DNA of 64,000 nucleotides. Source: Hahella chejuensis KCTC 2396. GTDB taxonomy: Bacteria; Pseudomonadota; Gammaproteobacteria; Pseudomonadales; Oleiphilaceae. The translations under genes were made by a program, and so were the position numbers. The notes beneath the pieces were generated by a model. It did not search any database, had not been told where the DNA came from, and saw only the letters and a list, made by a program, of their open reading frames with translations. Location of the stretch: positions 6,499,001-6,563,000 of the forward strand of contig NC_007645.1 of NCBI RefSeq assembly GCF_000012985.1. Direction: 5' to 3'. Numbering within the stretch: the stretch's first letter is position 1; every line of letters begins with the position of its first letter. Shown in pieces: positions 6,300 to 23,691 of the stretch.

Positions 6300-6301
6300 T
6301 T

Positions 6302-6727: not shown

Positions 6728-6742
6728 CCCATAGAAATGACA

Positions 6743-6768
6743 AGAGGGTCTATGACCCTCTTTCTTTG
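6743..6768 (+). terminator. Rho-independent terminator after the double-HTH gene
   Basis: AGAGGGTC / GACCCTCT stem (6743-6750 and 6754-6761) with a TAT loop, followed by TTCTTT. It ends the double-HTH transcript and faces the convergent cluster. Confidence 0.82.
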
Positions 6769-6812
6769 TATTAACAGAGCAGACTATAAGCCTACCCCCG
6801 ATTAGCGATTAG

Positions 6813-7397
6813 CTAGGTAGCCATATTGTCGTCATAGTTCTCACGCTGAGCACGAACTAAAGCCATGTTGACGTTCTCATCAACCAGCCTTTGCCGATCA
6901 AACTTTTCTCTGAAAGAGTCATGCGCAAGCTCTTCCGATACAAGCGCAACCCCATACCAGTTACACAGCCACGCGGTGAGCTGCTGGGAGTTTTCTACTA
7001 CATATACAGGGCGCTTGAGCAACTCTCTAAGGCCGTCAACAGACTCTTTACCATCCAACGCTAATGGTTCACGAACCTCCCGTCCTTTCTTGTCCCAGCC
7101 GATCCAATAGCTATAAAAAGCAATTTTTGCAATTTTAGGACCGGGAGTGGCATGGAATTCGTAATACGCGGTATCTAAGTTCGGTTTGACGGCCGCGCAA
7201 TACTTGCGCATCAATGTCAGTGATATATTTGCAAACCTGTCCGTGGGAAGTTCAGGAAGACCACTTCTTAGGTCGTTATAGTGGTTGAAGCCATATTCTT
7301 GGCAACACTTATCTATCTTTTGACAGTGTGTGCCTTCATAGTCAGATATTTTTGCTAGATATTTGATAGAGGTAATGCAGTCTTGGAATGCGAACAT
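6813..7397 (-). CDS. hypothetical protein, last gene of the toxin-candidate module
   Basis: 194 aa from the ATG at 7397, chosen because GGAG lies at the right spacing upstream; a TTG further up has no such site. I do not recognise the family. The N-terminal part (about residues 1-40, with LAKISDYEG and the EYGFNHYNDLRS segment) resembles the small helical motif often found at the start of plasmid- or toxin-linked proteins; this is a weak impression. The centre is mixed alpha/beta with many aromatic residues (YYEFHATPGPKIAKIAFYSYW). It lies downstream of the HEAT protein on the same strand after about 180 bases and may be a partner or an immunity protein. Function unknown. Confidence 0.65.
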   Translation of the reverse strand: MFAFQDCITSIKYLAKISDYEGTHCQKIDKCCQEYGFNHYNDLRSGLPELPTDRFANISLTLMRKYCAAVKPNLDTAYYEFHATPGPKIAKIAFYSYWIGWDKKGREVREPLALDGKESVDGLRELLKRPVYVVENSQQLTAWLCNWYGVALVSEELAHDSFREKFDRQRLVDENVNMALVRAQRENYDDNMAT

Positions 7398-7581
7398 GTG
7401 GATACTCCGATGGCCTTGCAGTTCTTCCCGCAATTAGCATGCCGCTTGCTTGGCCTCAAAGTAAGTCCAAATGTTGAATGATTAGTTCGGTATTTCCCAA
7501 CGCGGCAGGGAGGCTACCTGAGCCCACGCACAAAATTATGAAAATTTTATTGCGTGAAGTCAACAGCATGCACTTGCAAAC

Positions 7582-8826
7582 TTACAGAACTCTTCCATTA
7601 CGCACCCACTGCCCAGCGCCAACACTGATTTGAGTAGCGAGCTCATTTTTCCAGAGCTCAACTTGTGTCAATTGATCTGCGTAGTAACGCTTTTCGTCGT
7701 ATGGTAAGTGCAGACCTGAAAACATCATTAAGTGCTCATGTGTTATTACACGAGACTCACGATCAGCGTTCATCATTTTGTTGGCCAGAGTCTTGAGATC
7801 AAACGCTACGCCACGCTGGTAACGAGTTGCAGCATCAAACTTAGCAATATTTTCCGCCAACCACTGATCCCAGAAAGAGGCTAGTTCATCCACATCTGCA
7901 TACTGATCAACATTCCACTCACCTGTTATCTCAGAGATTGCCGTACTTGCTGCGGCTCGCACCTCTTCACTTTCGTCCGCAAGGAAAGGCTTCAGTCCAT
8001 CAATTGCGCGAATATCACCGGTGAATCCCAAGCCTTTAAGTATCCCGGCGACGTCATCTTCATCATCGCTTTGCTCTTTCGCTTCGTTCAATAAGAAATG
8101 CACTACATCACCTGGATTCCCGTAACGGCCAATGAGGTATGCTAACGTTCCATCTTCCATCCTTTCTGACAGCGCGAATTTATAGAAATCCAGACCACTA
8201 TCGTCGCCCATCAGCAACAAGCTTTTTGCACATTCAATGCGGAAATAGCTACTCACATCTTCATCATTCATGAGCGTTTTGAGAGCACTGGTGTAGCTGG
8301 AATCACCAACGTAACCCAGCATGGAAATGGTGTATGTGGAAGGATTAGAGATAAGGGCGTCTACTCGGTAATACGAAGCTAGCTCATTGAGCATATTCTT
8401 AGCTACAACGCTTGAAAGCGCGTCATGAATCCATGGCTTCTGCAAGGCAAGGGCTTTATGGCCAAAGCGCTTTATTGTGTCTACGTCACATACTCGCAAA
8501 GCTGGCTCAACATTCCAGTGCGCGTTACCGTCCTTCTCCCCCATCTTTTGCAGGAGTATGGAATCCATGTCAGAGTCGCCGGAATACAGTACGACATGAC
8601 ATGCGACCTCTCCTCGCGCTCCTTTACTGTTGATTGCCGCCTGTAGTACGGCAGCATTGTCACCCACGCCAGTAGCCAGATGCCTCGCTATTTCCTCATA
8701 GGAAGTTTCTAACTGCATGAGGGCAGACGCCTTGCTTGCGTCTGCCACATACATACTCTTCGCTAACCTTTCCCGATCAGCCCACAACTTGACCGCATTC
8801 TCGAATTCATTTTCCCAGGCGTTCAT
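7582..8826 (-). CDS. HEAT-repeat protein of the toxin-candidate module
   Basis: 414-aa soluble protein. Helical repeats are visible in the middle (DEDVSSYFRIECAKSLLLMG, then LKPFLADESEEVRAAASTAI), typical of HEAT/armadillo-type scaffolds. I recall a broad family of such proteins (TIGR02270-like) next to type VI secretion cargo genes in proteobacteria, but cannot confirm membership. It follows the beta-propeller gene by 81 bases in the same direction, so it is probably in one operon with the HNH-like protein. A role as chaperone, adaptor or immunity partner is an inference. Confidence 0.72.
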   Translation of the reverse strand: MNAWENEFENAVKLWADRERLAKSMYVADASKASALMQLETSYEEIARHLATGVGDNAAVLQAAINSKGARGEVACHVVLYSGDSDMDSILLQKMGEKDGNAHWNVEPALRVCDVDTIKRFGHKALALQKPWIHDALSSVVAKNMLNELASYYRVDALISNPSTYTISMLGYVGDSSYTSALKTLMNDEDVSSYFRIECAKSLLLMGDDSGLDFYKFALSERMEDGTLAYLIGRYGNPGDVVHFLLNEAKEQSDDEDDVAGILKGLGFTGDIRAIDGLKPFLADESEEVRAAASTAISEITGEWNVDQYADVDELASFWDQWLAENIAKFDAATRYQRGVAFDLKTLANKMMNADRESRVITHEHLMMFSGLHLPYDEKRYYADQLTQVELWKNELATQISVGAGQWVRNGRVL

Positions 8827-8907
8827 ATATTTAATAGATCGTATGTAGGAAGCGTGGAGGCAATTCCAAAAAGGCCAGCCTCTTCTCCCACCACCGATAC
8901 AGACAAA

Positions 8908-9861
8908 TCACGAGTTAATCTTAGCCCATTCCATATCTGCGCCCGGTTGATATTGGACAACCCACGGCCTAGGTTGTTGTTCTGCAGGAATAAAATAAAT
9001 GGCATCCTTTGCCTCAAATACACCGACGATATCAGCCCTGTCCTTTAGGCATTCAAAACGCCCATCTTTCAGTTCAAATATTCCGCTTGGCCCGCCAGCA
9101 AAAAACAACCGCTCCTTGAAATATCCAACGCCATACCATTTGTACTCTGGCGAACCAATATCCTGGAATCCATCAAGAGCATTACCTTTAAGCACTCCGC
9201 CGCTTCTTCCGGTGATATACACCTCTTCTTTACTCACCACGCGTACATCAGTAAAGACTTCTCCTTCCGGCAAGTGGGCTGGGTATGGGACATCGGACCA
9301 ACTACTCCCATCAAAATGGTGAATTTTTCCGTGATAGCCAACTACATACACATCATTAGAAGCTGAACCATTAATGCCATTGGAGGTGTTACCTATGGCA
9401 TGCATCGTCCAACTCTTTCCGTCCCAATGAAACGCCTGTCCATTGAAGCTCGTTACCCATACATCGGAGTCGGATGATCCCCAAATCCCCTGCAGTGAGT
9501 TGCGATCAATTAACGTAACGTTCCACTGAACTCCAGAGTCCAAGTCTTTATAGTCGAGGTGTTGATATGGTGCATTAACAAACGTCACAGGGGCATTCGT
9601 GTATACGTTCCCCTTGCGATCCACTACCCACAAATGCCCTTCCGGTGACATCCACATCGCGTTCATTTGAGTATTCGCGTATAAAAGGCGTGTCCCTTTC
9701 CCACCGAGAACAATACCGTTTTTATCTGTCGTCGCTTTCTTTATAGTCCCAACGGCAGCTAAAGCATCTGATTCATCATAGTGGGTGTAGAGTTGGTATA
9801 CATTTCCGTCTGCATCTCCGCAGACGCCAATAACATGATTAATTTCATATGTGTTTGACAT
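8908..9861 (-). CDS. beta-propeller-like repeat protein
   Basis: 317-aa protein built from repeated blades with recurring patterns such as VWVTSFNGQAFHWDGKSW, VYVVGYHGKIHHFDGSSW and VYITGRSGGVLKG, each about 40-50 residues. No signal peptide is seen, so it should be cytoplasmic unless carried out with a partner. The start codon is 9 bases after the stop of the HNH-like toxin candidate, which implies coupling and a shared complex. Propellers of this type are known beside secreted toxins, but the specific function here is unknown. Confidence 0.75.
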   Translation of the reverse strand: MSNTYEINHVIGVCGDADGNVYQLYTHYDESDALAAVGTIKKATTDKNGIVLGGKGTRLLYANTQMNAMWMSPEGHLWVVDRKGNVYTNAPVTFVNAPYQHLDYKDLDSGVQWNVTLIDRNSLQGIWGSSDSDVWVTSFNGQAFHWDGKSWTMHAIGNTSNGINGSASNDVYVVGYHGKIHHFDGSSWSDVPYPAHLPEGEVFTDVRVVSKEEVYITGRSGGVLKGNALDGFQDIGSPEYKWYGVGYFKERLFFAGGPSGIFELKDGRFECLKDRADIVGVFEAKDAIYFIPAEQQPRPWVVQYQPGADMEWAKINS

Positions 9862-9870
9862 TTCAAATCC

Positions 9871-11049
9871 CTAGAACGCGTCGCGTGTAAAGTCTTCATC
9901 TTCAGGAACGGTACCGCCCCCAATGAGGTTCGAGCACAGTGCATTTTTGTCGCACCCGCACTGATCAAGGTAGTCTTCGTATTCCCTTCTAATGCATTTC
10001 GCAACAATAGCTGCCTCATCTGCCGGTACCCGTGCTCGATACTCATCTGGAGCACGCATTATGTCATTCATGGGCAGCGACATTGCGGTAATATATTCCA
10101 TGTGATCAAGCCACTCGGTAACCGTCGCGTACCGTCCCTCCGCTTCAAGCATTTGTCCAAACTGCTCTTCAGCTTCTGTCAGATATCTATGCTCTGTTCC
10201 CTGGCTTTGGTCGTCGTATACAAAATAGGTAATCGCATCGCCTTCGGTATATCTGCCAAAGGCGCGCCTAATGGGTACCGCTGATCGCGCTTCCTTAGCA
10301 GCCGCATTCCTCGAACGCTCCATAAAGCAACTATGCGGAACAAAGTGCTCACGCTGATAGCCCGGTTTGCTAATTTTTTGCAGCTTTTTATACGGACCTA
10401 CCGTGATACCGTGCTTTTTAAACAGCTCTTTTCGCTTCGCAGGATCATTAACAATTTCATTAACCTCTTGCTCGCTATATATTGTTCCGGCCTCGCTACT
10501 CTCCGCTTCTGAGTTAGATGTGTTGCCGGTAGAAGTAACTTTTCCTGGCTTTATCTGGCTCGCTCGATAACTCTCGTCATCTCGTTTCTCACTCGACCAA
10601 CCAAGGTTCCCATTAAAGGAGGAGACATCACTCACCTCTCCGGTAATTGCAGGAGGAGGCGGCGGCGGGGGATTAGCACGCACTATCAACCGATTTGCGA
10701 GGGATGGTTCAGAGTTAGTTGGTGTCAGGCCATTCTCGCCTTCAGCAATCAGAGGGCAAAAAGGCTTTCGTTTGTCTTTAAATACAAGCAGCACTTCTCC
10801 ACGCTCAACATCCCGCACGAAGTCATCACGCCACTTTCGGAAATACCGCGAACCTCTTCCCGGAAAAGTACCAAACATGGAGCGGAAATGTGAGCCAGCG
10901 AGGCTGTTAACGACCTGACCTACCGTTGCATCAGAGCTCAAACAGCGGTCAGCGTAGTGTGCTGCAAAGAACGGAGACTCAGCGAACGGAAGGTCGGCAG
11001 TGGTAATGTCAGACCAATGCTTAAATTCGTACCAGCGATTAGAGTACAT
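9871..11049 (-). CDS. modular protein with a C-terminal HNH-like nuclease candidate domain
   Basis: 392 aa, first gene of a four-gene minus-strand module. Three parts are visible: an N-terminal domain (about residues 1-115, with VGQVVNSLAGSHFRSMFG and GSRYFRKWRDDFVRDVERG), a proline-rich linker (seven prolines near residue 126) with a Ser/Thr/Gly-rich spacer, and a C-terminal domain starting near residue 215 with YQREHFVPHSC, RAFGRYTEGDA, GTEHRYLTEAE and TEWLDHMEYIT. The paired EHF...H and GTEH elements resemble HNH/Endo VII-type nucleases. The layout (delivery-like N-terminus, linker, nuclease-like tip) is that of polymorphic toxins. No secretion signal or PAAR domain is present. Toxicity is inferred. 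Confidence 0.68.
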   Translation of the reverse strand: MYSNRWYEFKHWSDITTADLPFAESPFFAAHYADRCLSSDATVGQVVNSLAGSHFRSMFGTFPGRGSRYFRKWRDDFVRDVERGEVLLVFKDKRKPFCPLIAEGENGLTPTNSEPSLANRLIVRANPPPPPPPAITGEVSDVSSFNGNLGWSSEKRDDESYRASQIKPGKVTSTGNTSNSEAESSEAGTIYSEQEVNEIVNDPAKRKELFKKHGITVGPYKKLQKISKPGYQREHFVPHSCFMERSRNAAAKEARSAVPIRRAFGRYTEGDAITYFVYDDQSQGTEHRYLTEAEEQFGQMLEAEGRYATVTEWLDHMEYITAMSLPMNDIMRAPDEYRARVPADEAAIVAKCIRREYEDYLDQCGCDKNALCSNLIGGGTVPEDEDFTRDAF

Positions 11050-11252
11050 CTAGAAATACATCCCTTGTATGGCGCTGAACCTGCCAGACCGCAAGCAGCG
11101 CGATGAATAGCCAAAAACACGTTACATTCATTCACAATGCAAGTGGATTGTACATATGTGGGATGTGCTGGTGAATCAGCAATCCGTCCTAACCCTGCTG
11201 ACATATTGACGCACTAAAGCATAACATCCAGCTTTACAGCCTCCCCTAACCC

Positions 11253-11281
11253 TGGACAAAATTCGCTCAAAACGCTATATT
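11253..11281 (+). promoter_or_regulatory. sigma-70-type promoter of a mini transcription unit
   Basis: TGGACA (11253-11258), 17-base spacer, TATATT (11276-11281). A short ORF and a very strong terminator follow within 140 bases, which supports real transcription on the plus strand. Confidence 0.6.
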
Positions 11282-11325
11282 CTAACTGTTAAAGGAATTT
11301 TGAGCTGCGTGTAGAGGTAGTCTGT

Positions 11326-11379
11326 ATGAGCGCCAGCAAATTTGACTTGATTGAGAAGCGAACGGGAAGTTCCACATAA
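11326..11379 (+). CDS. possible 17-aa leader peptide or small protein
   Basis: ATG with an upstream AGAGGTAG that could bind ribosomes; the product is MSASKFDLIEKRTGSST. The stop codon overlaps the first bases of the terminator stem. It may be a leader, a small protein, or the left-over beginning of a longer gene. Too short to assign a function. Confidence 0.4.
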   Translation: MSASKFDLIEKRTGSST

Positions 11380-11416
11380 GGCCGCATACGTTTTTTACGT
11401 ATGCGGCCTTTTTTTT
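11378..11416 (+). terminator. very strong Rho-independent terminator
   Basis: Perfect 14-bp stem (11378-11391 with 11397-11410), a five-T loop and a following run of T. It closes the short transcript that starts near 11288. Confidence 0.93.
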
Positions 11417-11489
11417 AGGCTATGCAGATGCTTCCAAGATAAATAACGCAGGTTAAACTCTAGAGTATAAGATCCAGAAAAGGCTAAAC

Positions 11490-11609
11490 GAGGAGGTATC
11501 ATGAAAAATAACGGAACGTAGAAAGCCCTTCCTTAGGAAGGGCTCCATAACGAAGGTACACTAGCTGCACACCCTTCGCTCTAAGAATCGGTGTGCACGC
11601 GAACCTCCT
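11490..11609 (+). promoter_or_regulatory. structured leader with a 6-codon ORF
   Basis: A perfect Shine-Dalgarno (GAGGAGGT, 11490-11497) precedes a six-residue ORF (11501-11521, MKNNGT). It is followed by a 9-bp hairpin AGCCCTTCC / GGAAGGGCT (11524-11532 and 11536-11544) and an 8-bp hairpin TGCACACC / GGTGTGCA (11566-11573 and 11590-11597). The segment ACCTCCT at 11603-11609 can pair with the Shine-Dalgarno. This looks like an attenuator or translational switch ahead of the small membrane protein at 11750; the mechanism is inferred. Confidence 0.5.
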
Positions 11610-11670
11610 ACCCGATACTACCACGGCAATCATCCTTTGCCAAGGAGTTAAGGTTGGCTGTGTGCCCTCA

Positions 11671-11725
11671 CACACTTACAACACACTTACAACACACTTA
11701 CAACACACTTACAACACACTTACAA
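11671..11725 (+). repeat. five exact 11-bp tandem repeats
   Basis: Unit CACACTTACAA occurs five times head to tail (11671-11681, 11682-11692, 11693-11703, 11704-11714, 11715-11725), then decays. It lies in the leader directly ahead of the 68-aa membrane protein. The flanking CCTCACACAC and TGTGTGAGG can pair across the array and would cover the ribosome binding site. Alternatives are an iteron-like protein-binding array or a simple slippage tract. Confidence 0.9.
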
Positions 11726-11749
11726 CAAACACTGTGTGAGGAGGTAGAC

Positions 11750-11956
11750 ATGTTCACCGCACAACTGTTTCTCAACCTGGCGATTATTATCCTGATCGCT
11801 GAAACGGCTATTTTTATTAGCTCGATCATAACAGGATCAACCGAAAATCTGCCTGCGATCATAGAAGGATTCAGGCTGTTCGTCCAGTGGGTAGTGATGT
11901 ACGAACAACTCCTACGTATCGTGTATATCCCACTGCTCCTGTACCTATCATCATAA
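11750..11956 (+). CDS. 68-aa membrane protein
   Basis: Starts at the ATG after GAGGAGGT (11740-11747). Two hydrophobic segments are visible: LFLNLAIIILIAETAIFISSI near the N-terminus and a C-terminal YEQLLRIVYIPLLLYLSS. It is similar in size and hydrophobicity to toxins of type I systems and to small phage or plasmid membrane proteins, but has no family signature that I know. The unusual structured leader with repeats suggests tight control. Confidence 0.62.
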   Translation: MFTAQLFLNLAIIILIAETAIFISSIITGSTENLPAIIEGFRLFVQWVVMYEQLLRIVYIPLLLYLSS

Positions 11957-12110
11957 GGACGCGCTTTTGAGGAAATGGATTTCCTCTTTTCCAGACTTTC
12001 TCTGTTTTACAAGGAAAAATCGCTAAATTGCTGTAAGTATAGTCAAGCTCTGAGAATTTGCTGACAATCTTTGAATTTTTTCAAGATACACTCGATCGTA
12101 ACACCGCACT

Positions 12111-12458
12111 CTATTCCTTCGAGCAGCCATCCACACTCTCTTTCGACACTTCGTATCCTTTCGCGAGCAAAAAGCCATTGCAGAAGCCATCAAGGTACCG
12201 CTCATCATGTTCTAGCAATGCAGGCATGTCTTTATCAAACCTTTTGATGAGCTCGTGGATGTTAACTGAGAGCACTTGGCAAATCGCCATAACCTCAAAA
12301 AGATCTAGTTTCCTATCGCCAGATTCGTATCTGGTAACAAAAACCTTATATTTCTGAAGGCGGCTTGATAGCTCCTCTTGATTCATACCCAGATCTTTTC
12401 GGGCTTTTTTCAATAGGCTGATAAGTAGTTCGTATCTGGGGTCATTATTAGGCTTCAT
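12111..12458 (-). CDS. XRE-family transcriptional regulator
   Basis: 115 aa with an HTH at residues about 12-65: KKARKDLGMNQEELSSRLQKYKVFVTRYESGDRKLD is split into the recognition helix (QEELSSRLQ) and the following RYESG loop typical of the Cro/CI class. The C-terminal 50 residues are of unknown role. It is divergent from the secreted-protein gene at 12626 and may repress both. It could be the immunity-type repressor of the island. Confidence 0.85.
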   Translation of the reverse strand: MKPNNDPRYELLISLLKKARKDLGMNQEELSSRLQKYKVFVTRYESGDRKLDLFEVMAICQVLSVNIHELIKRFDKDMPALLEHDERYLDGFCNGFLLAKGYEVSKESVDGCSKE

Positions 12459-12625
12459 GCAGGCAGCATAGAGGAGGTACGCACACCATCCTAAAGTGAA
12501 TTTTTTTTGTTTTTTCTTCTGTTTTAGAAAAAGTCAACTACACTTGATTTTGCAAGGTGTGAGAAGGCGCTCGATTGCTCGGGAACCTTTTCCTTGTATC
12601 TGTGTGTTTTTTCAGGAGGAAGATT

Positions 12626-12913
12626 ATGAAGAAGTCCGTTGCAGCGCTGAGCATATGTGCAGCACTGAGTCTCGTTATGTCACCGGCCATGGCCGAGAAT
12701 ACTCAAAACCCATGCAAAGATTCGGTGTATGTATCCCTTAAAAACAAAAGCTTGGAGCAGATGACCGACCGTGAGTATGAAACGTACAAACAGGCAGACC
12801 AAGCCTGCGCTTCCTACACCACAAATGTTGCCGCCATGCAGGAATCGACAAGTTTCAAAAATAACTGGTGGTGGGTAGCATTGGCTGCCCTTCCGCTACT
12901 ATTTCTCCTCTAA
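12626..12913 (+). CDS. small exported protein with a C-terminal membrane anchor
   Basis: 95 aa from the ATG preceded by CAGGAGGAAG. It has a signal peptide (MKKSVAALSICAALSLVMSP, cleavage after AMA) and a hydrophobic C-terminus (WWWVALAALPLLFLL) that should anchor it in the inner membrane. Two cysteines (CKDS and QACAS) may pair in the periplasm. No family recognised. It may belong with the conjugation-like ATPases or guard the cell surface; both are guesses. Confidence 0.65.
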   Translation: MKKSVAALSICAALSLVMSPAMAENTQNPCKDSVYVSLKNKSLEQMTDREYETYKQADQACASYTTNVAAMQESTSFKNNWWWVALAALPLLFLL

Positions 12914-13113
12914 TAACAAGGATAACCGGCGGGCAAGGATGCCCCCACCAACGTGTGCAAATCTGCACTTTTCACTGTCTTTGACCAATCCCCTTCTCGC
13001 GTATGTTGTATGCGTGCGTCACAGAGACGCGCGAGGTGAAGCCGCCAGTACGGGGCTTCACCCTTGCTGGCTGTTCTTCATGTTCTTTTGCATACCACAT
13101 AGAGAGAAGCTAC

Positions 13114-13626
13114 ATGAACGAAGATGTACAACAGCACTACTCAATCCACGAAGACGGCTCATACCAATTCAATCAGGCAATACATCCAGACAAAATCATT
13201 TCCATTGCAAAACATATCCTTGATGGAAGGTTTTTCCGTGGTAAAGCATTCTGCGACCCTGACGCGACCAAGTACTATCTCGTGCTCCAGCTCGCAGAAC
13301 ATGAACAAGAAGTATTTGCCTGCATGTTCCTTGATAACCAGAACCGCCTCATCAGCTTTGAAAAATTGTTCTACGGGACCATTGATCAAGCGTCCGTATA
13401 TCCACGAGAAATAGTGAAGCGTGCGCTTATGCTGAATGCAGCAGCAGTGATTCTTGCCCATAACCACCCGAGCGGAATGTCTGAACCCAGCGTGGCCGAT
13501 ATAGCAATGACAAAGACCGTGAAGAGTTCATTGGCGCTCATCGACGTGCGAGTGCTTGATCATATTGTGGTTGGAAGCGACGGAAGTTCCGTGAGTTTTA
13601 TAGAGAGAGGCTATATGGCAGGGTAA
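13114..13626 (+). CDS. RadC-family (JAB/MPN-like) protein
   Basis: 170 aa from the ATG at 13114. It carries the full RadC signature: [25 protein letters not shown] with the metal-binding HNHPSG, and a later Asp-containing segment ([13 protein letters not shown]). RadC-like proteins of this length (lacking the N-terminal HhH region of chromosomal RadC) are common in plasmids and genomic islands, where their function is unclear. A GTGAAGCC / GGCTTCAC hairpin (13036-13061) lies in the upstream leader. Confidence 0.9.
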
Positions 13627-13633
13627 ATTTCCA

Positions 13634-13660
13634 TCCCCCCCCTACTAATTGTAGGGGGGA
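13634..13660. terminator. hairpin between convergent genes
   Basis: C-run / G-run stem (13637-13644 with 13652-13659), loop of 7, just after the RadC-like gene and before the convergent CYTH gene. T tract is weak in both directions. Confidence 0.5.
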
Positions 13661-13677
13661 GTTTATATTAAGTATTA

Positions 13678-14193
13678 CTAAAAAAGCATATCCGAATAAG
13701 ACACGGATACAAGGCTTTTTTCCTTAATACAAAAGTGATTCCTAAGAAACTCAACTTCTTCTCTAGCTTCTTGCTCTGTTATCCCATTCATTACAACTTC
13801 AAACTCACCAAATTCACCCAGTCCCAGAACGCTATCGCAGTGTATTCGAGAGTTCTTATAAAAATATACTCGCCTTCTTTTCGAAACAATACCGCGAGCC
13901 CCAAGAATAAAGCTCAGAATAACTTCAACAATATTAGATAGTAAACGACCAACTCTGAAGCGGTAATATCTCGAAAGTCTCTCCCCCTTACAGTTGCTCC
14001 TAAAGTAATAAATAAATGTTTTTATTCCATTCTCGTCTCTTAGCTTTAGTCTTCCCTTATTTATCGAGTAAAATATATCTTTTTGCATCAATTCAACTGG
14101 TGATTCCATGGAAATTTTCTTTGCCATGGCCACAAACTCTGACATTGATTCAATAGAAAATTTTAATTCTATATTTTTTGACATAGAAATCAC
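13678..14193 (-). CDS. CYTH-domain protein (class IV adenylyl cyclase / triphosphatase-like)
   Basis: 171 aa from a GTG that overlaps the preceding stop (GTGA); an ATG at 14184 is an alternative. The protein aligns by eye with CyaB-type CYTH domains: N-terminal NIELKF (a variant of the ExExK strand), DIFYSINKGRLKLRDENG, FIYYFRSN, LSRYYRFRV, GIVSKRRRVYF, RIHCDSVLGLGEFGEFEVV and a C-terminal YSDMLF. These residues form the triphosphate tunnel that binds NTP or related substrates with divalent metals. Possible activities are cyclic-nucleotide synthesis or triphosphate hydrolysis. One acidic residue of ExExK is replaced by Asn, so activity may be altered. It is coupled to the SAHH-like gene upstream. 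Confidence 0.82.
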   Translation of the reverse strand: MISMSKNIELKFSIESMSEFVAMAKKISMESPVELMQKDIFYSINKGRLKLRDENGIKTFIYYFRSNCKGERLSRYYRFRVGRLLSNIVEVILSFILGARGIVSKRRRVYFYKNSRIHCDSVLGLGEFGEFEVVMNGITEQEAREEVEFLRNHFCIKEKSLVSVSYSDMLF

Positions 14194-15371
14194 AAATTAA
14201 CTAATCTAAGCCAGTCCTTAGAAATTTCATTTAGATAATTAAGATGCAGCTCATGAATTATTCCTGGTGGATATTTACCTTTAGTTTTGCTTGTAAGAAT
14301 AAGCATAATGCATATTAGTATTTCTGAAAAAACCAAATCAAGAATCTCTACAGGCATACTTGGAAGTATAAAGTTAACTGCTGCTCCTTGCTTAGCCACC
14401 AATACTCTTTTTGAGTTTGGTAATACATACCCCTTTAGCTCTTCTCCAACATCTTTTTCCTCTATGCAGTGCGCCTTTACTTCCTTAATATCAAACTCTG
14501 TATCTTTAGACCCCACACTAGCAAGTATAACATTATTCTTACACTCCTCAATCTCTTCATATGTCATTGATCCGCTTGGATCTCCCGTCGCAGAGAAGAT
14601 AATATCTGCATTCTTAATCAGCTCTCTTTTCTTATGGATAGCATAACCATCTATAAAAGCGGAAAGGTTTTTATGATCATGTTTATCATATACTGAAACA
14701 TTAAGATCACCTCCTCTCAATGCCCTAGCTACATTTTCACCTATCATTCCATAACCAATAACAAGAGCGTTTCGACCTGCCAGTGATATTCCTTTTTTCC
14801 GAAGAATATACTCTATTGCAGAAACCGCATCTCTACCAACAAATCTGGCCTCGATTTCTTTGAGCCCACTTCTTGCCACTGAAAATACAGGCACGCTTAT
14901 GTGCTTAACAGACATCTGATATCTATTGTGCCCAAAAGTAGTATCTTCCACCACCCCAGAAATATATTTTTTATCTTTGTCAGATATCTCTTTCAATGGT
15001 CTAGAAAAATATCCTCCAACATCTATCAATACAACATTCTTTTTATCCGCCTTACTTTTATCTATGGCCTCCAATATAAGATACTTCAAATAATCACTTT
15101 CTTCTAAGTATTGATATGATTTTTGTATAACTTTAATCCCATCACCCTGTAGCCGCATCAGAACCTCTGAATCAATAGAGTACGGCTTCGCTAATAGGGC
15201 AAATATCTCTGCCTCTGACTCCATCAGGCATCGAACCATTTCTTCAGTTGTTGGAAGCAAATGTTCAATAATAATGAACCTTGTATTTTTCAGATATGCT
15301 TTATTTCTATCCTGCCTCGCATACTTTTTAAATATACGAAGTTGCGAACCCTGGAAATGATAGCTCATCAT
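14190..15371 (-). CDS. S-adenosylhomocysteine hydrolase-like NAD-binding protein
   Basis: 393 aa. The centre holds a Rossmann fold with LAGRNALVIGYGMIGENVARAL near residue 205 and YDKHD after the second strand, matching the NAD domain of adenosylhomocysteinase, preceded by GVVEDTTFGHNRY (the counterpart of the ETTTGVHRLY segment) and HLLPTTEEMVRCL. ATGDPSGSMTYEEIEEC and ILASVGSKDTEFD follow as in the family. The C-terminal substrate lid of genuine enzymes is not recognisable, so the usual SAH hydrolysis is doubtful. GC is low compared with the ATPase gene upstream. It starts 30 bases after that gene with AGGAGGG and is coupled to the CYTH gene. Confidence 0.8.
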   Translation of the reverse strand: MMSYHFQGSQLRIFKKYARQDRNKAYLKNTRFIIIEHLLPTTEEMVRCLMESEAEIFALLAKPYSIDSEVLMRLQGDGIKVIQKSYQYLEESDYLKYLILEAIDKSKADKKNVVLIDVGGYFSRPLKEISDKDKKYISGVVEDTTFGHNRYQMSVKHISVPVFSVARSGLKEIEARFVGRDAVSAIEYILRKKGISLAGRNALVIGYGMIGENVARALRGGDLNVSVYDKHDHKNLSAFIDGYAIHKKRELIKNADIIFSATGDPSGSMTYEEIEECKNNVILASVGSKDTEFDIKEVKAHCIEEKDVGEELKGYVLPNSKRVLVAKQGAAVNFILPSMPVEILDLVFSEILICIMLILTSKTKGKYPPGIIHELHLNYLNEISKDWLRLVNL

Positions 15372-15384
15372 CGCCCTCCTAATA

Positions 15385-15401
15385 GGCTATATAATATAGC
15401 C
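15385..15401. repeat. 17-base perfect palindrome at the cargo boundary
   Basis: GGCTATAT / ATATAGCC around a single A, located between the stop of the large ATPase (15402) and the start of the SAHH-like gene. It may be an operator, an RNA hairpin that separates expression of backbone and cargo, or a mark of insertion. Confidence 0.6.
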
Positions 15402-18400
15402 CTAAATCTTCCGCACCGACCTCGCAATAATCTCCGCGATAACCGACCGCCCACCGTCAGGAGGAGGACTCCCTCGCTTCACCTTCACCCTATACCCCTT
15501 CACAGAACTGGTGGTAGGCTCAATCGGGGGAAATAGAGACTCGATATATTCCTGGATCTGCTCTGGCTTAATCACCAACACCGGGAGTTTCTTCGCATCT
15601 TCCTTCTTGAAATATTGCTCCATGCGGAGACGCATATTGGCCTTCTGCACAATCGAAAGAATCTGAGTGTATGTCCCAGCTGCCCGGCACTTCTCAATGT
15701 TTTGCAACTCGTGCTTCATGTCGGTAGTCACCGATATCTCACACGCCACCTTCACCTTTCCGCGATACAGCGCAACGTCCACAACCCCACCCGGGCACGG
15801 CTCTTCAATGACCGCCCTGCAACCCCGCTCTTCAGCAAGACGCTTTATGAGATTCTGGAGGTATATGTGTTGTGTGGTGGCGCGCTTTGTATCTTTCTCT
15901 TCTGCGTCTTCCTGGATAGCAGGGGGAGGTGTGGGAGTCTTTGGAGCAGCCCTCTCAGGCTCTTTAATGTGTTGTGCTGGTTTTTGCTTCTCTTGATCCT
16001 CGGCAGGCTCTTGTCTGGAGGGTGCGACGGCCTTTTGCGGCGCCTCTTTCCTCACATACCGTTCTTGGAAGAGTTGCTCTATCTGCGATACAGCAACTCC
16101 ATACTTCTCGCGGGAACGGGACACCAACGCTTCTCGCTGCCGGAATGCGTCGGGGACTTCGATATAGTCTGTTCTAATCGCAACCTCATTCCCCATGTTT
16201 CCCCTTCTCACCAGCGCCTCACCACGCCCCAGTGAAACAATGTTCTGATGATCAAACACGGAGAATCCCTGCGCGAGAGAGCGCGCATCATTGCCGCCAA
16301 CCCGAAACACAATACGGCTATGTGCATTGCCGAGCACAGCGTCTGCAACTTCAGGAGCACGGCTTAGCTGTGAAAGGTATTGATGGGAAAGCGTAAGCCC
16401 CAACTTATACTTCCGGCCTTCTCCAAAAATAGAAGCCAATGACGGCGTCACGAAGTGTTGGCATTCATCGATATAGAGAAAAAACGGTTTGCGATCCTGC
16501 TTCGGTATCGACTGCCTGGCTATCGCATACTGCTGGCATTTGGTAACGAGAAGGCTTCCGAGAAGCTGGGCGTTTGTTGCTCCCATGAGCCCAAGCGGAA
16601 GACGTGCAAGCAGGATCTTTCCTTCTTGCATAATGTTTCCCAAATGAATCCCACCTCTCGGCTGTCCAAGCACATACCGCAGCATGCGAGCTCGAAGAAA
16701 CGAATCGAGACGAGTCACCAACGGCCCGATGGAGCGTGATCCTATACGCGGAAAGTCATGCTCCCAGAATGCTTGTATCGCTTGATCTGTGATAGGAGCG
16801 AGGCATTTTGCCCGATATGAGGCATCAGAGAGGAAATGCCGCAAATCGAGAAGTGAGTACGCCTCATCGCTCTCCACCAGCGCAAGCACGGCCTCTGCAA
16901 GCACTGTTGTCATCACATCGCCCCAGGACGTAGAAAGGCGCGAAATCGTAGATACGAGATCAGAGACTAATAGATTTTTTTCGTGGGAGCTTTCTGCCTG
17001 CAGGATGTTTAATCCAATAGAAAACTGCTCATCAGATGGATCAAACACGATCACATCATCAAATCGATTCTCTGGCATACACTGCAAGATATCGTCGGTT
17101 AGATCGCCATGCGGATCTATGAGCATGCAGCCGTTACCACCACGCGCATCCTGCAACATCATAGAGAGCAACAACGATGACTTTCCTGTCCCAGAAGCAC
17201 CAACCACGTGCGTATGCGCAAATCGATCTATGTGCGGAATGGTAGCGGGTATGCGCTCCCCGTCATGCTGATAGGAGCCAATGACAAGACCGTTTTCATC
17301 CTCTTCTGGAAAGCCCGCGATCTCTCTCACCAACGGTCCTCGTACGGACTCGTCAGGTATATGCACCAACCCCACCAGCTCCTCAAGGGAGAGAATCATG
17401 CCTGTATGATGGCTCGCGCGCGAATACAAGAGCGTGTCGTCGTCATATGTTGGGTAGTACGTGACGTCCAGGGGAAATAGCTCATTTCCATGCACAGAGC
17501 CATACTGATCAAACACCCCATCAAACCCAGCCAAGAGCTCAGGAATCCGCAATTCATCTGCCTGTGCGCCAACCCTGAGAGATACGGCAAAGAGTGGCGA
17601 AGCCGTCTTCATTTTCGCGAATTGAAGAAACTCTGGTGCATCCGCAAAAAAGCAACTCCCGTCCTCCTCATCGGTGAGCGCATCCATGATTGTCCGCGCC
17701 CAGGGATTCTTCACCGGCTCGATGAGCACCTGCATGCAAAGACACTCTCCTTCTCCTGCACGTGAGAGTGCGGACACTAACGCGATGTATGGATCGATAG
17801 CGAAGTTGCGGACATGGACAAGGGGAATAAAGAATTCACGGAACAACCCAAAGTCTATCCGTGCTTGCGTATTGGTGCCGTCCCACGCAGCTAGGAGCAG
17901 ATCATCTCCCGCGTGTACTGACCCTTCTGGAAGAAATGCTCGTAACGTGCTTCCGACATACTCCGCATCAATCTGATGGCACGTCAGCGCGCACTCTACA
18001 ACACCATCAGTACCGACCAGCTCAAAGGAGATTGTCTCCATTGCGCCGGTGAGTGTTCGGAGCATGGCGCACATGCGCTCGTGATTTGTTTTGTATTCTG
18101 GAGGAATACACAGCTGAAACGATACAGGCTCATACGGAAGCGCCCTTGGAAATGGCGGCTGTTCTTCATAGCTTTTCTGGGGAAGTATCTGTCGATCTGG
18201 CCTCCGCTGAAATAACCGCTGCCAGAACGACAAATGGACTCCATCGTCATACGGCGCAACAAGCGGAGCTTCATGCTCGGGTAGCAAGAAAAAGGGGCGG
18301 TATGGAGGTTCAAGTTGTACTGCCTCATCGGCAGAAAGCCATCCCCTTCCCCGCATTTCCCAAGCATAGAAGCTCTTCGTCAGCGCCTCCTCTATGAGTT

Positions 18401-18407
18401 GCGACAC
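15402..18407 (-). CDS. large TraG/VirD4/HerA-type ATPase with C-terminal nuclease-like domain
   Basis: 1001 aa. The N-terminal 390 residues are a family-specific region. A RecA-like motor follows: Walker A GASGTGKSS near residue 405, GCMLIDPHGDLTDD, Walker B region FFLYIDECQHF, and LGLTLSHQYLSQL. This is the arrangement of conjugative coupling proteins and related DNA pumps. A Pro/Glu/Lys-rich linker (about 790-850) leads to a C-terminal domain with GGVVDVALYRGKVKVACEIS, where the Asp and the E-x-S pattern resemble PD-(D/E)xK nucleases. No transmembrane helix is clear. It starts 6 bases after the upstream 168-aa gene, so they are coupled. Confidence 0.83.
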   Translation of the reverse strand: MSQLIEEALTKSFYAWEMRGRGWLSADEAVQLEPPYRPFFLLPEHEAPLVAPYDDGVHLSFWQRLFQRRPDRQILPQKSYEEQPPFPRALPYEPVSFQLCIPPEYKTNHERMCAMLRTLTGAMETISFELVGTDGVVECALTCHQIDAEYVGSTLRAFLPEGSVHAGDDLLLAAWDGTNTQARIDFGLFREFFIPLVHVRNFAIDPYIALVSALSRAGEGECLCMQVLIEPVKNPWARTIMDALTDEEDGSCFFADAPEFLQFAKMKTASPLFAVSLRVGAQADELRIPELLAGFDGVFDQYGSVHGNELFPLDVTYYPTYDDDTLLYSRASHHTGMILSLEELVGLVHIPDESVRGPLVREIAGFPEEDENGLVIGSYQHDGERIPATIPHIDRFAHTHVVGASGTGKSSLLLSMMLQDARGGNGCMLIDPHGDLTDDILQCMPENRFDDVIVFDPSDEQFSIGLNILQAESSHEKNLLVSDLVSTISRLSTSWGDVMTTVLAEAVLALVESDEAYSLLDLRHFLSDASYRAKCLAPITDQAIQAFWEHDFPRIGSRSIGPLVTRLDSFLRARMLRYVLGQPRGGIHLGNIMQEGKILLARLPLGLMGATNAQLLGSLLVTKCQQYAIARQSIPKQDRKPFFLYIDECQHFVTPSLASIFGEGRKYKLGLTLSHQYLSQLSRAPEVADAVLGNAHSRIVFRVGGNDARSLAQGFSVFDHQNIVSLGRGEALVRRGNMGNEVAIRTDYIEVPDAFRQREALVSRSREKYGVAVSQIEQLFQERYVRKEAPQKAVAPSRQEPAEDQEKQKPAQHIKEPERAAPKTPTPPPAIQEDAEEKDTKRATTQHIYLQNLIKRLAEERGCRAVIEEPCPGGVVDVALYRGKVKVACEISVTTDMKHELQNIEKCRAAGTYTQILSIVQKANMRLRMEQYFKKEDAKKLPVLVIKPEQIQEYIESLFPPIEPTTSSVKGYRVKVKRGSPPPDGGRSVIAEIIARSVRKI

Positions 18408-18413
18408 AGCACA

Positions 18414-18920
18414 CTACCGACCACGCCCTAATAGATCCCGAATAGTTGGTTTATAGTCCTCCCGCGCAAGGGCATGCATTCCCCTAGCTTCCAATATGCC
18501 GTCCAGTACTTGCGACACGCAGCCGGCAGTGAGTGACTGGAACATGTTCGCGGTATCCAAGCGGTAGTACGTGATCGGCTTTATGAGGTGTCTGATAACG
18601 AAGCCTATAACCGGGAGGCGGGATAACCACGCAAAAAAGCCAGAGTCGATATACCCAAGCCACCACGAAATAAAGAACCCATTACCAAACGGCGCGGCGC
18701 ATACATGGAAGACATGCTCCCCTCGACGGACTTGGAGATATTCACGCTTTGAGGAGCCGATACCACCTTCAGAGAATCGGACTCGTTCAGTCCGTACTCG
18801 CGGCGCATCGTGCTCTTTAAGCTTGTGCTCGACGGCATCGTAGAATTCATTGGTGGACTGCTGTAGTCCTTCGACTCGGTAATGCCAGTTAGAAATGATA
18901 TCGGTAGGAATGGTACGCAT
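18414..18920 (-). CDS. hypothetical protein between the two pump-like ATPases
   Basis: 168 aa from the ATG with an upstream GGGAGG; a longer frame upstream has no ribosome site. The protein has a hydrophobic stretch around residues 88-115 (FFISWWLGYIDSG and LPVIGFVIRHLI) and is otherwise soluble and basic. I do not recognise it. Its position directly ahead of the large ATPase, 6 bases apart, suggests that it anchors or regulates that motor. Confidence 0.7.
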   Translation of the reverse strand: MRTIPTDIISNWHYRVEGLQQSTNEFYDAVEHKLKEHDAPRVRTERVRFSEGGIGSSKREYLQVRRGEHVFHVCAAPFGNGFFISWWLGYIDSGFFAWLSRLPVIGFVIRHLIKPITYYRLDTANMFQSLTAGCVSQVLDGILEARGMHALAREDYKPTIRDLLGRGR

Positions 18921-19225
18921 ACTTAACCTCCCTTTGCAGGTAAACGCATACTGCATAACACGCGCGTACTGCGCCGTCTTATGCGCTCTTCTTGCAACGT
19001 TAAAAAGCGTAGTGTGACCTAGCGCATATCTCAATGAAGTCGGTATGACAAAATTACTTTTTAATGTATATGCGTTGGTAACGATCAGAAATAAAACGCA
19101 CCGAGTTATTTATATTTACTGGTGTATATTTCCATTACCAGCGTTCAGCCTATATTGAACATGGACAGCGCCTTATATAGGAATACCATCGGTAACCATT
19201 TCCCAACAAAGTAGCTGGAGCATAC
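18921..19225. other. 305-bp gap between the 168-aa gene and the second ATPase
   Basis: AT-rich, without a credible gene. It should hold the promoter of the 168-aa gene and large ATPase on the minus strand. No clear terminator or clear sigma-70 boxes were identified. Confidence 0.4.
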
Positions 19226-20431
19226 CTAATGAAGCTTTCGCTTTTTCACAAAGTTCGTACGCGGCGGTAACGTATTCGCACTGAACGGTTTGCTCGCAGT
19301 ACCATCAATCATGAGTGAGAGCGCAATCGAGTGATACGGCAAGCTCATCAAATCATCCGCAGAGAATACTCGATTAAAGTGCTTCGCCATAATCGGCGCA
19401 TCCAGCGGCCCCAGGCGGAACGAAATGAGTGTTCCCATGTTGGATAACACTGCTTGGCTAATCTTTGGTTCAAGCTGATGGAGATGCTGGTGTGCAAACA
19501 CCAACCCAACCTTATACTTCCGAAGCTCAGACACCATCGACACAACCGCCTCTGTGGTGAAGTGCTGGAACTCATCGACATAGAGATAGAACGGGCGACG
19601 TGCATGCTCTGGGATATTTGCACGAGAGAAGGCAGCACTCTGAATGATGTTTATGAGAAACGCGCCTAGGAGACGTGTACTGTCCGCTCCAAGCTTTCCT
19701 TTAGCAAGGTTTACAACGAGCACCTTCCCCTCATCCATCGCTTTGCGAATCGAAAGCTGGACTGGTGGATTTGTCAGCATGCGGTATAGACGAGGGTCAG
19801 CCAGAAACGCCCCCACCTTGTTCTCAATAGGCGCGCATGCTTCACGCTTTTGAGCTGGCGTGTACCGCGCCCACTCTTTTGTCCAAAAGCGTAGAACCGC
19901 CTCATTCTTCACATGAGCTAGAACGAGGTTTCGAAACTCTTTATCTCCTGGAAGTCTGGTGATATCGGGAAATGAAGCCTTTCCATATTCCAGGAGCGCA
20001 AACAGAGTATTACGGAGCAAATGCTCCATACGGACACCCCAAGCTCCCTTCCCCCATAGTTGTTGCAAGACGTCCATAATGCTGGACGCGACCATAGGAA
20101 TATACGCTGTTCCCACGCCACGCAGCGGGTTATATCCATACGGCTGATTTGGATCAGCTGCATCCAAATAGATGAAGTTATCCTGAAGAGACTTCGGTAC
20201 ACGCTGAGCGATACGCTCTGCTATATCACCGTGGGGGTCGATAAAAGCACAGCCACGCCCAGCATGGATGTCCTGCAGGATGAGGTTTTCGAGAAGGGTA
20301 GATTTACCGGCACCTGTCTTCCCTATGGCGTACATATGGAAAAGCCGGTCTGGCTGCTTTATGCCAAATCGAGAATACGGTGGCCGCCAGTTCGTTTGCC
20401 CAAAATATGAAACTGCATGATTGTTTGCCAT
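19226..20431 (-). CDS. compact TraG/VirD4-type ATPase
   Basis: 401 aa from the ATG (MANNHAVSYF); an earlier in-frame start adds a Cys-rich stretch without ribosome site. Walker A is GKTGAGKSTLLENLI near residue 36, then GCAFIDPHGDIAERIAQ, the Walker B-like FYLYVDEFQHF and the sensor segment VGLVFAHQHLHQLEPKI. The same signatures as in the 1001-aa protein show common descent, but this one lacks the large N-terminal domain and the nuclease-like tail. No membrane helices, unlike classical VirD4. Together the two may form a two-part DNA-transfer or DNA-processing motor. Confidence 0.85.
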   Translation of the reverse strand: MANNHAVSYFGQTNWRPPYSRFGIKQPDRLFHMYAIGKTGAGKSTLLENLILQDIHAGRGCAFIDPHGDIAERIAQRVPKSLQDNFIYLDAADPNQPYGYNPLRGVGTAYIPMVASSIMDVLQQLWGKGAWGVRMEHLLRNTLFALLEYGKASFPDITRLPGDKEFRNLVLAHVKNEAVLRFWTKEWARYTPAQKREACAPIENKVGAFLADPRLYRMLTNPPVQLSIRKAMDEGKVLVVNLAKGKLGADSTRLLGAFLINIIQSAAFSRANIPEHARRPFYLYVDEFQHFTTEAVVSMVSELRKYKVGLVFAHQHLHQLEPKISQAVLSNMGTLISFRLGPLDAPIMAKHFNRVFSADDLMSLPYHSIALSLMIDGTASKPFSANTLPPRTNFVKKRKLH

Positions 20432-20502
20432 GCAGAGAGATAAACATCCTAGACACAACCTGACACGGCATGCCTTTGTGCGGAATAGACACACACTCCT
20501 CA

Positions 20503-20525
20503 GGGAAATTCAGTCTGAATTTCCC
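20503..20525. promoter_or_regulatory. inverted repeat upstream of the compact ATPase
   Basis: Perfect 10-bp arms GGGAAATTCA / TGAATTTCCC around GTC, 72 bases upstream of the ATPase start. It could be an operator or a hairpin that separates it from the C39-like gene. Confidence 0.55.
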
Positions 20526-20588
20526 CATTCTCTTTACCTAATACTTGTAGGAAGGTTAATAATATGAAAGTAATATTATTAAAACCAC

Positions 20589-20969
20589 TCAACTCTCAAT
20601 TACCAAAACACGAGTAATTTCATGTTTGGTTATCTTCTTTGGCGAGGGAGTACTTGGGCAAGGATCAAAGAATAGGCCATTATGATAGACAAACCAATGT
20701 CTCAAATTTTTATCACCTCTGTATCTACCATAACAAAGAGCAGTTTTATTAGTCTTATTCAGTGAGTATTTAAGTATAGGATCTAAGCCAAATTTAATTT
20801 TAACGGCCAACTTCATTTCTGAGATTTTCATAAATCCTTTTCTCTTTATAATATTTTTATTATCTATCCATTTGTCAGCTTGCTCAAAGCTTTCAATGTC
20901 TTTGCAAATCATTGCGAAAGAAGCAATACCACACCCTTCACTGGAGTCAATTTGTTTAATAGTCTCCAT
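20589..20969 (-). CDS. C39-like cysteine peptidase
   Basis: 126 aa from the ATG after AAGGAG. Catalytic residues of papain-fold C39-like peptidases can be placed: Gln-Cys region QIDSSEGCGIASFAMI (Cys near residue 14), His in RHWFVYHNG and Asp in FFDPCPS. Such domains cleave double-glycine leaders when fused to ABC exporters, but here the domain is alone and has no transporter partner. GC is low, suggesting cargo. Substrate unknown. Confidence 0.72.
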   Translation of the reverse strand: METIKQIDSSEGCGIASFAMICKDIESFEQADKWIDNKNIIKRKGFMKISEMKLAVKIKFGLDPILKYSLNKTNKTALCYGRYRGDKNLRHWFVYHNGLFFDPCPSTPSPKKITKHEITRVLVIES

Positions 20970-21060
20970 ACAAATCTCCTTATGTGTTTTTGATGACCAT
21001 GTAAAAACATAGCGAGAAGCCAAGGTCACTCCTCAAGAACTCGGAACACTTAATAAGTAC

Positions 21061-21690
21061 CTAAACAAAATTAATCTTATATTCCTGTCCAAACTTTGAC
21101 AGAATGTCGTTCACTGACTCTTTCAGCCTGTCGAAAGTCTCATACGAATCCAAAGGCAGCCAGCTGTACTTCACCTTTCGCCACAAGATCTCTATCAGGT
21201 TTAGCTCCGGTGAATATTTCGGCAAATAGATCGGCCAGATGCCTTTATCTATCCAATCCAACCTATGTCGGCGAAACTCCGCAGAGCGATGCATGGAGGC
21301 GTTGTCCAGAAGCACCACGGCAGGCTTAAGCGGATCTTTACTCTCCGCCAGCTTATTAAAAAGCGCTACGACTTTGGCGGAGTCCACCCGCTCCTCTGTG
21401 GCATGGAATATCAGCTTCTGGCGGCGACTCATAAACCCCAGAACGTTCAGTCTCTTATTGTGTGGATAGGATTTCATTTGCGTCGGCTTCCCCACAGGGC
21501 TCCAGCCATAAGGTAAGTTAGAACGCTGACTGAACCCTGATTCATCAAAGTAGTAAAGCTCGATTTCGCCTGCATCCTCCCAGGATTGAAGATCTTTCAC
21601 AACGCCTTGAAACTGGCGGAAGGCGACTTCATCCCGAAGCGCGCGCAGCGAAAAGCGGAATCGCTTGAAGCTATACTTTGATTTTTTTTA
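21061..21690 (-). CDS. IS630 transposase, C-terminal DDE catalytic part
   Basis: Frame reading on from the A8 tract (about 21680) through KYSFKRFRFSLRALRDEV into the catalytic core: first Asp in LYYFDESGFS, second in VVLLDNASMH, and Glu in NLIEILWRKVKY, the DDE triad of IS630/Tc1-mariner enzymes. Its own ATG at 21600 is internal and would give a protein lacking the DNA-binding part. Active product probably needs frameshifting, unless the copy is dead. Confidence 0.83.
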
Positions 21691-22087
21691 AGTTCCGTTT
21701 AACGGTCTCCAGACTGGCGCTTTTTCCAGTTTCTTTTTCCAGACGTATCTGGACATCTCGTAGTTGTTGGGGCTGCTCGTCAATCCACTTACAAACCTTT
21801 TCTTGTTCCTGCTCCGTGTAAATGGGCGGTCTTCCCGGGGAGGCGTCGCTAATGAGGCCGCATATTCCCATGCTTTCCCACTGCTCAATCCAGATCGAAA
21901 TGGTGTTGCGGTGGAAGTCGATAATGTCGGCAATTTTATCGATTTTATACCCCTTATTGCTGAGCAGTATGGCGTGACAGCGAATACGGAAGCGGGAGCT
22001 CGGGCTGTAGCGAAACCCATCGGTAAGAGTCTTTATTTCAGCGGGCTTAAGATGATTGACGTACTTCACGGTGCAAAATATGATCAA
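21671..22087 (-). CDS. IS630 transposase, N-terminal part (HTH)
   Basis: 138 aa containing the helix-turn-helix domains that bind the IS ends: FRIRCHAILLSNKGYKIDKI, FHRNTISIWIEQWE and the GRPPIYTEQEQE linker. The frame stops just after an eight-A tract. The catalytic half continues in another frame at 21061-21690, so a one-base shift (or slippage on the A run) is needed for a full transposase. Confidence 0.85.
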   Translation of the reverse strand: MIIFCTVKYVNHLKPAEIKTLTDGFRYSPSSRFRIRCHAILLSNKGYKIDKIADIIDFHRNTISIWIEQWESMGICGLISDASPGRPPIYTEQEQEKVCKWIDEQPQQLRDVQIRLEKETGKSASLETVKRNLKKIKV

Positions 22088-22115
22088 ATTGAGTGGTCGT
22101 AAGTCGCCTATTTTA

Positions 22116-23631: not shown

Positions 23632-23691
23632 TTAGTCATCCATTAATACATAAAACTATTCAAACATGAAAATTCATTACAAAGTTCACAT

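Follow-up and report, generated by a model that had tools for sequence, protein, structure and literature searches.

What might a homologue of adenosylhomocysteinase (SAHH, AhcY) and a CYTH-domain protein do together, when they are encoded side by side in a genomic island of Hahella chejuensis KCTC 2396? The window analysed here, the whole stretch of 64,000 nucleotides, contains such a pair, and in it members of two known superfamilies are combined in a new way on mobile DNA, with the SAHH active site altered. Our leading, though tentative, reading is that the pair is a horizontally mobile two-enzyme nucleotide-processing module, used most likely in conflict with phages or rival elements, and we infer its substrate, the order of its steps and its role. 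The biochemical class that we infer, with the CYTH protein acting on a triphosphate and the SAHH-like protein acting with NAD on a nucleotide-derived sugar, is reasonably probable, while a role in conflict is a possibility that we hold with some reserve. The pair and its immediate surroundings are laid out as follows.

14190..15371, minus strand: SAHH-like gene, 393 aa; complete SAHH fold including the NAD domain, substrate and gate residues changed
13678..14184, minus strand: CYTH (triphosphate-tunnel) gene, 168 aa from ATG; start agrees with three relatives
14190..14193, minus strand: GTGA overlap of the SAHH-like stop and a possible CYTH GTG start
15375..15380, minus strand: AGGAGG, like a ribosome-binding site, ahead of the SAHH-like start (read from the sequence)
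13637..13659, plus strand: 9-pair stem-loop in the interval between the CYTH gene and a convergent RadC-like gene, terminator-like on the plus strand
15402..18407, minus strand: TraD/HerA-like ATPase gene, co-directional, directly upstream of the pair

Both open reading frames are present where the earlier note had placed them, and the DNA-pump ATPase that it described ahead of them is a TraD/HerA-type gene ending 30 bp from the SAHH-like gene. The AGGAGG stands 3 bases from the first ATG of the SAHH-like gene. The CYTH gene has no obvious site of this type, and starts either at the GTG over the SAHH-like stop or at an ATG 9 bases further. Of the claimed GTGA overlap, the overlap itself exists and the use of its GTG as a start is uncertain: begun at GTG 14193, the CYTH ORF would span 13678-14193 (minus strand) and encode 171 aa, but the ATG at 14184 (MSKNIE) matches the start point in three of the related loci introduced below (L022, L016 and L017; L018 has no ATG there), so that the GTG need not be the start. 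Because the CYTH start overlaps or closely trails the SAHH-like stop, the GTG and ATG positions suggest that the two genes are translationally coupled. Residues of the CYTH protein are counted here from the ATG. The search that gave the stem-loop found 5 terminator-like sites in the 64-kb stretch, against a mean of 1.5 in shuffles. The low GC content noticed earlier is borne out, at 0.358 for the pair against 0.452 for the island and 0.539 and 0.544 for its flanks; with equally low values in 11 of 624 same-length segments across the 64 kb, it is unusual, though not unique.

The upstream protein keeps the NAD core of adenosylhomocysteinase, as had been claimed (Pfam AdoHcyase_NAD, E 3e-20). Its best NCBIfam match, adenosylhomocysteinase NF004005 (E 8e-43), spans residues 14-363 and misses the equivalog cut-off (146.8 vs 275 bits), and for this branch the Pfam and NCBIfam scans returned general SAHH and Rossmann models only. 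A structure model built from a ten-sequence alignment (pLDDT 90.5) aligns to whole SAHH structures over 388-401 columns, with TM scores of 0.76-0.83 for the ten best, and each of the 50 solved-structure matches listed is SAHH or SAHH-like. Since the model aligns to whole SAHH structures, the substrate domain is present in the predicted fold. The suggestion that the protein has no recognisable substrate lid can thus be set aside; the losses instead concern the gate His of the GHF motif and several substrate residues.

These residues were compared in an alignment of 26 SAHH-like family members and 8 canonical SAHH controls, numbered as in human SAHH. Equivalents of His55, Glu156 and Lys186 are retained in all 26 members and are His37, Glu142 and Lys171 in the window protein. 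The Asp131 position is Tyr in 24 of the 26, the window protein included; at the Asp190 position, members of the CYTH-linked clade and their closest relatives have Ala, L102 has Gly, and the other main branch has Asp; and no family member has a His at the His353 position, where L021 is too short to judge. All three are presumably substrate or catalytic residues of SAHH, an assignment that we draw partly from mutants of AgmF (PMC8599513). The GHF motif (H301-F302) has been described as the molecular gate of SAHH (PMC13406329). It reads GSK in the window protein, and with it the gate His is gone; the His301 position is Ser in 26/26 family members and His in 8/8 controls. The window protein also has Arg in place of Asn191, a Lys62 that is invariant in two family alignments, and Pro63 where SAHH carries Ile. 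Judged from these alignments, a family that has the whole SAHH fold and NAD-binding domain in common with SAHH appears to retain the apparatus for NAD and some of the catalytic residues around a different pocket. Because the equivalents of Asp131, Asp190, His301 and His353 are replaced, the window protein is probably not an SAH hydrolase. Its NF004005 match would fit an ordinary SAH or S-inosylhomocysteine hydrolase, standing beside a CYTH protein that removes an unrelated triphosphate; given the distance from the equivalog cut-off, the four changed positions, a gate His kept in none of the family and in every control, and a separate SAHH encoded elsewhere in the same genome, we regard such a hydrolase as very improbable.

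The downstream protein carries a CYTH domain (Pfam CYTH, 37.5 bits vs a cut-off of 23.2, E 2.8e-9), and its sole NCBIfam match is cyaB TIGR00318, at 34.9 bits under the cut-off of 57.95. Its structure model (pLDDT 91.6), which with that of its partner supplies the two predictions proposed earlier, matches tunnel enzymes, in the order of two Pyrococcus proteins, then class IV cyclases and Saci_0718. The tunnel fold is common to CYTH enzymes such as CyaB, ygiF, ThTPase and Saci_0718, and ten tunnel residues (E6, K8, K47, R49, R62, K102, R104, D117, E127 and E129) are invariant in all five CYTH proteins found paired with an SAHH-like protein. They differ from those enzymes in the first Glu of the ExExK motif, which reads NIELK in the window protein, as the earlier note had seen. 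This change is not peculiar to the one protein: N-x-E-x-K is usual in the subfamily, occurring in four of the five paired proteins (Cys in L018) and in 9/9 complete solo relatives. In AtTTM3, Glu-2 helps to bind a second metal and is required for PPPi hydrolysis (PMC4641920). Since the position of this Glu is Asn or Cys, the second metal site of the subfamily is, by analogy, probably changed, and the paired proteins may have altered or weak catalysis. Hydrolysis of triphosphate is known from other CYTH enzymes and, at a weak level, from CyaB (PMC3440374).

The resemblance to CyaB raises the possibility of a signalling pair, in which the CYTH protein would be a class IV adenylate cyclase and the SAHH-like protein would bind or modify the cyclic nucleotide. 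The match to cyaB TIGR00318, the only one in NCBIfam albeit below cut-off, and the class IV cyclases among the top fold matches would agree with this. On the other hand, CyaB His-122, which binds metal 2 (PMC4641920), aligns with Arg113 of the window protein, and no common effector is seen, because four other pair loci (L016, L017, L018 and L022) have no further gene in common at E 1e-5. Altogether, we consider signalling improbable. Solo members of the NIEIK subfamily (L117-L122, L106-L108) occur singly, and their loci have no common neighbour, except within two closely related pairs and for a few isolated matches.

The proposal that the two genes form a system gains from their recurrence. 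Among the best 80 of 269 relatives of the SAHH-like protein from a scan of genome contigs, a tblastn search with the window CYTH protein found a CYTH gene beside the SAHH-like gene in four other loci, from Thiotrichaceae (L016), Halomonas cerina (L022), Acidobacteria (L017) and Auribacterota (L018), with L016, L017 and L018 being MAGs. The CYTH gene lies downstream by 3 bp in L016, 33 bp in L017 and 7 bp in L022, and in L018 the order is reversed, with the CYTH gene upstream and one small ORF between. All five pair loci fall inside a clade of seven SAHH-like sequences (support 100/98) together with L019 and L021, so that five of its seven members have CYTH adjacency, with one apparent exception, L019, which has no CYTH gene downstream, only 162 readable bases upstream, and, at E<=1e-6, no CYTH gene of the pair's subfamily anywhere in the genome. 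In L021, the SAHH-like gene ends early at an IS-like sequence and the contig end, and the genome's CYTH gene is on a different contig; by eye, the stretch after this early end (L021:8433-8571) resembles the start of a transposase. For L020, L023 and L024, which are more distant, a search at E<=1e-6 finds no CYTH of the subfamily in the genome. The paired CYTH proteins are unresolved as a single clade, which is also not rejected (p-AU 0.13). In addition, on a separate branch of the SAHH-like family, a Bacteroidetes locus (L046:6847-9808) has NDK, SAHH-like and CYTH genes consecutively, and its CYTH protein has an intact EYELK. The N-terminal extension of the long SAHH-like ORF of L046 is NUDIX-looking, by eye only.

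Could the pair nevertheless be two unrelated cargo genes, together by chance? Location in an island and low GC would, by themselves, permit this, and L019 lacks the partner. Since the window genome has three CYTH genes, we estimate that one would adjoin a given gene by chance about one time in a thousand, so chance is a poor explanation. The same neighbours occur in the window and four relatives, across three phyla and in both gene orders, with L046 besides, and identities of 56-63% between the window's SAHH-like protein and its pair relatives argue against one recent transfer. A chance association is hardly credible on this evidence. The upstream ATPase was considered as a third component and dropped, as a TraD/HerA-type gene adjoins none of the four other pairs; in L017, a different ATPase (with ATPase_2, cold-shock and TPR domains) follows the CYTH gene. 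With PADLOC 2.0.0, the pair matches no known anti-phage model, the only match being to BrxB at E 0.006 (SAHH-like protein). Neither protein reaches an NCBIfam equivalog cut-off, and in the open-access papers searched we found no description of an SAHH-like/CYTH pair and none linking SAHH with phage and a defense island; the one paper that came up for CYTH together with adenosylhomocysteinase was unrelated, and the one for CYTH in an anti-phage context dealt with an insect-gut genome.

The pair is carried by an island that also holds genes of known defence types.

6299..37175, strand not applicable: genomic island interrupting comM, ~30.9 kb, which holds the pair
35682..37202, plus strand: large serine recombinase gene at the right island edge
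30834..32324, minus strand: dGTPase-type defence gene (PADLOC E 1.8e-117)
33077-33664, plus strand: ShosT-like defence gene (PADLOC E 6.8e-21)
33671-34372, plus strand: ShosA-like defence gene (PADLOC E 3.4e-62)

Intact comM is found in five of six congeneric genomes (open frames of 521-528 aa), and in the sixth it extends over two contigs. In the alignment to intact comM, 14-15 bases are covered by both island junctions (6299 and 37175) and are likely the attachment core; a literal comparison of the island ends gave no shared word longer than 6 bases. The window's SAHH-like gene is absent from all six congeneric genomes, of which five have a single match each, as strong as expected for canonical SAHH, and the sixth has no match. 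Mobile-element genes lie near the pair in several loci, in line with the island context proposed earlier, with tyrosine-integrase genes beside it in L017 and L018.

The distribution of the pair is very patchy. With the SAHH-like family profile at E<=1e-60, carriers number 1/201 genomes in the family of L022, 1/63 in the order of L016, 1/44 in the phylum of L018, 2/396 in that of L017 and 1/392 in that of L021, and these 201, 63, 44, 396 and 392 genomes contain no carriers besides those already known. In the window's class, 4/369 genomes match the SAHH-like family, the window among them; the other three are distant members with no CYTH within the 14-15 kb read around them. The CYTH profile (E<=1e-12) matches 8/369 genomes of the class, again including the window, and only the window genome matches both profiles. 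The viral contig collections scanned contain no relative of the window pair. A phage collection gave three records at 23.5-23.9% identity, and L008 among them is a canonical SAHH amid bacterial genes. This record, labelled Acinetobacter phage MD-2021a, has bacterial housekeeping genes around ahcY and looks like host DNA.

What the two enzymes might act on is suggested mainly by gene association in the wider family. Our neighbour survey covered 63 loci, which form 29 clusters when grouped at 80% identity, leaving out 25 of 88 loci (24 from Streptomyces and L006, Streptomycetaceae) with no ORF passing E 1e-30. A CYTH, NUDIX or HD gene lies beside the SAHH-like gene in 12 of the 29 clusters, counting L018, where the CYTH gene is across one small ORF. 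Besides CYTH, the direct neighbour is NUDIX in L023, L027 and L090 and HD in L004, L005 and L100; L026 has a uridine-kinase-family gene as a neighbour, L024 a NUDIX gene two genes away, and L091 a HAD-type gene. The remaining 17 clusters have no directly adjacent CYTH, NUDIX or HD gene, a count that includes loci un- or part-covered by the family scan (in L054 it covered one of two neighbours and in L055, L081 and L087 none, and L058 had no neighbour called). Because genes for CYTH, NUDIX or HD hydrolases or nucleotide kinases adjoin, the neighbours point to a nucleotide substrate, and the nucleotide theme of the earlier note finds backing in the HD, NUDIX, NDK and uridine-kinase-family neighbours of other family members.

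A nucleotide substrate would also suit a metabolic or self-resistance pair, which detoxifies or salvages a nucleotide resembling a nucleoside antibiotic, or is the relict of a natural-product pathway, with no phage role. Distant family members do sit in cluster-like operons: a Staphylococcus epidermidis plasmid (L004:1306-10457) carries TIGR00730, hydroxylase, NUDIX, peptidase, PLP, PyrE, HD, SAHH-like and MFS genes, a Lactiplantibacillus plantarum plasmid carries MFS-HD-SAHH-like, and a Paenibacillus locus has NUDIX, PurA-like and ABC transporter genes. The S. epidermidis gene row resembles a cluster for a nucleoside-type metabolite. There is also a biochemical precedent in AgmF, the SAHH-type NAD-dependent dehydratase of angustmycin A, an SAHH homologue that dehydrates a nucleoside and so illustrates an SAHH-fold enzyme refusing SAH and acting on a nucleoside sugar (PMC8599513). 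However, of the residues reported as essential in AgmF (His56, Asp129, Lys184, Asp188 and His299; PMC8599513), the window clade retains only the equivalents of His56 and Lys184, as mapped by SAHH motifs, the others being replaced. Among the genes scanned beside the pair in L016, L017, L018 and L022, there is no transporter and no further nucleotide enzyme; a YcaO gene of L022 is located ~1.5 kb past its SAHH-like and CYTH genes. A purely metabolic role is therefore somewhat unlikely in our estimation.

Returning to the mobile nucleotide-processing module, we envisage that the CYTH tunnel would bind and cleave a nucleoside triphosphate, an analogue, or a triphosphate released from one. With NAD, the SAHH-like protein would oxidise a sugar hydroxyl of a nucleoside or nucleotide through Lys171, Glu142 and His37, and would then eliminate, epimerise or reduce at the sugar, in a reaction other than SAH hydrolysis. 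In conflict, the outcome would be nucleotide depletion or a modified nucleotide. We place conflict as the likeliest use on the grounds that the two genes move together as a small mobile unit and that defence genes lie near three of the five pair loci, with detoxification of a nucleotide analogue as the next option. In scans that covered chosen genes around the pair loci, the dGTPase and ShosT/ShosA-like genes of the window lie at a distance of ~15-19 kb, a CAP12-type TIR gene is found two genes past the pair in L016, and the L018 contig encodes SIR2 (PDC-S65) and TIR effector-like proteins ~14-20 kb off; this proximity in the window, L016 and L018 is suggestive, although islands gather such genes anyway. 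L017 gave weak or generic defence matches only, and L022 none in the two neighbours scanned. A dGTPase, like the module as we read it, acts on a nucleotide. The dGTPase and ShosTA systems are located in the same island as the pair, yet neither pair protein matches their PADLOC models. Jumbo phages, too, encode CYTH triphosphatases in a conflict setting, and the proposal there is that these enzymes break down NTPs whose bases are unmodified (PMC7824862); the passage that proposes it mentions no SAHH-like partner, and, in contrast to these enzymes, the window pair has no viral relatives in the collections scanned.

A bolder version, which we regard as a long shot, is a new nucleotide-destroying defence in which the SAHH-fold enzyme would take an NTP in place of SAH, oxidise its ribose by means of bound NAD and expel the 5'-triphosphate, and the CYTH protein would hydrolyse this triphosphate, pulling the reaction. 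If so, infected cells would lose the NTP or fill with a dead-end sugar-modified nucleoside. More generally, the pair reveals that the SAHH superfamily has a diverged branch seemingly tied to nucleotide chemistry, in a clean two-protein cassette in which each substrate class is directly testable. If the pair protects against phage, sugar-directed NAD redox chemistry would join nucleotide-based immunity; if it does not, it would still account for some genes in mobile DNA that are annotated as "adenosylhomocysteinase" or "class IV adenylate cyclase".

Some smaller features of these loci may be added. In the window, two TraD/HerA-like ATPases (mad8-like in PADLOC) flank a 206-aa gene without a family match (15402-20494). 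Small ORFs lie just before the SAHH-like gene in L018 (2263-2547), L021 (7195-7464) and L019 (1-156), and when compared they proved similar in position, with no significant similarity. Just downstream of the Halomonas CYTH gene, L022:9698-9853 repeats its last ~52 codons at 83% identity, in an ORF that also matches PagL, and this repeat could be a scar of integration or duplication.
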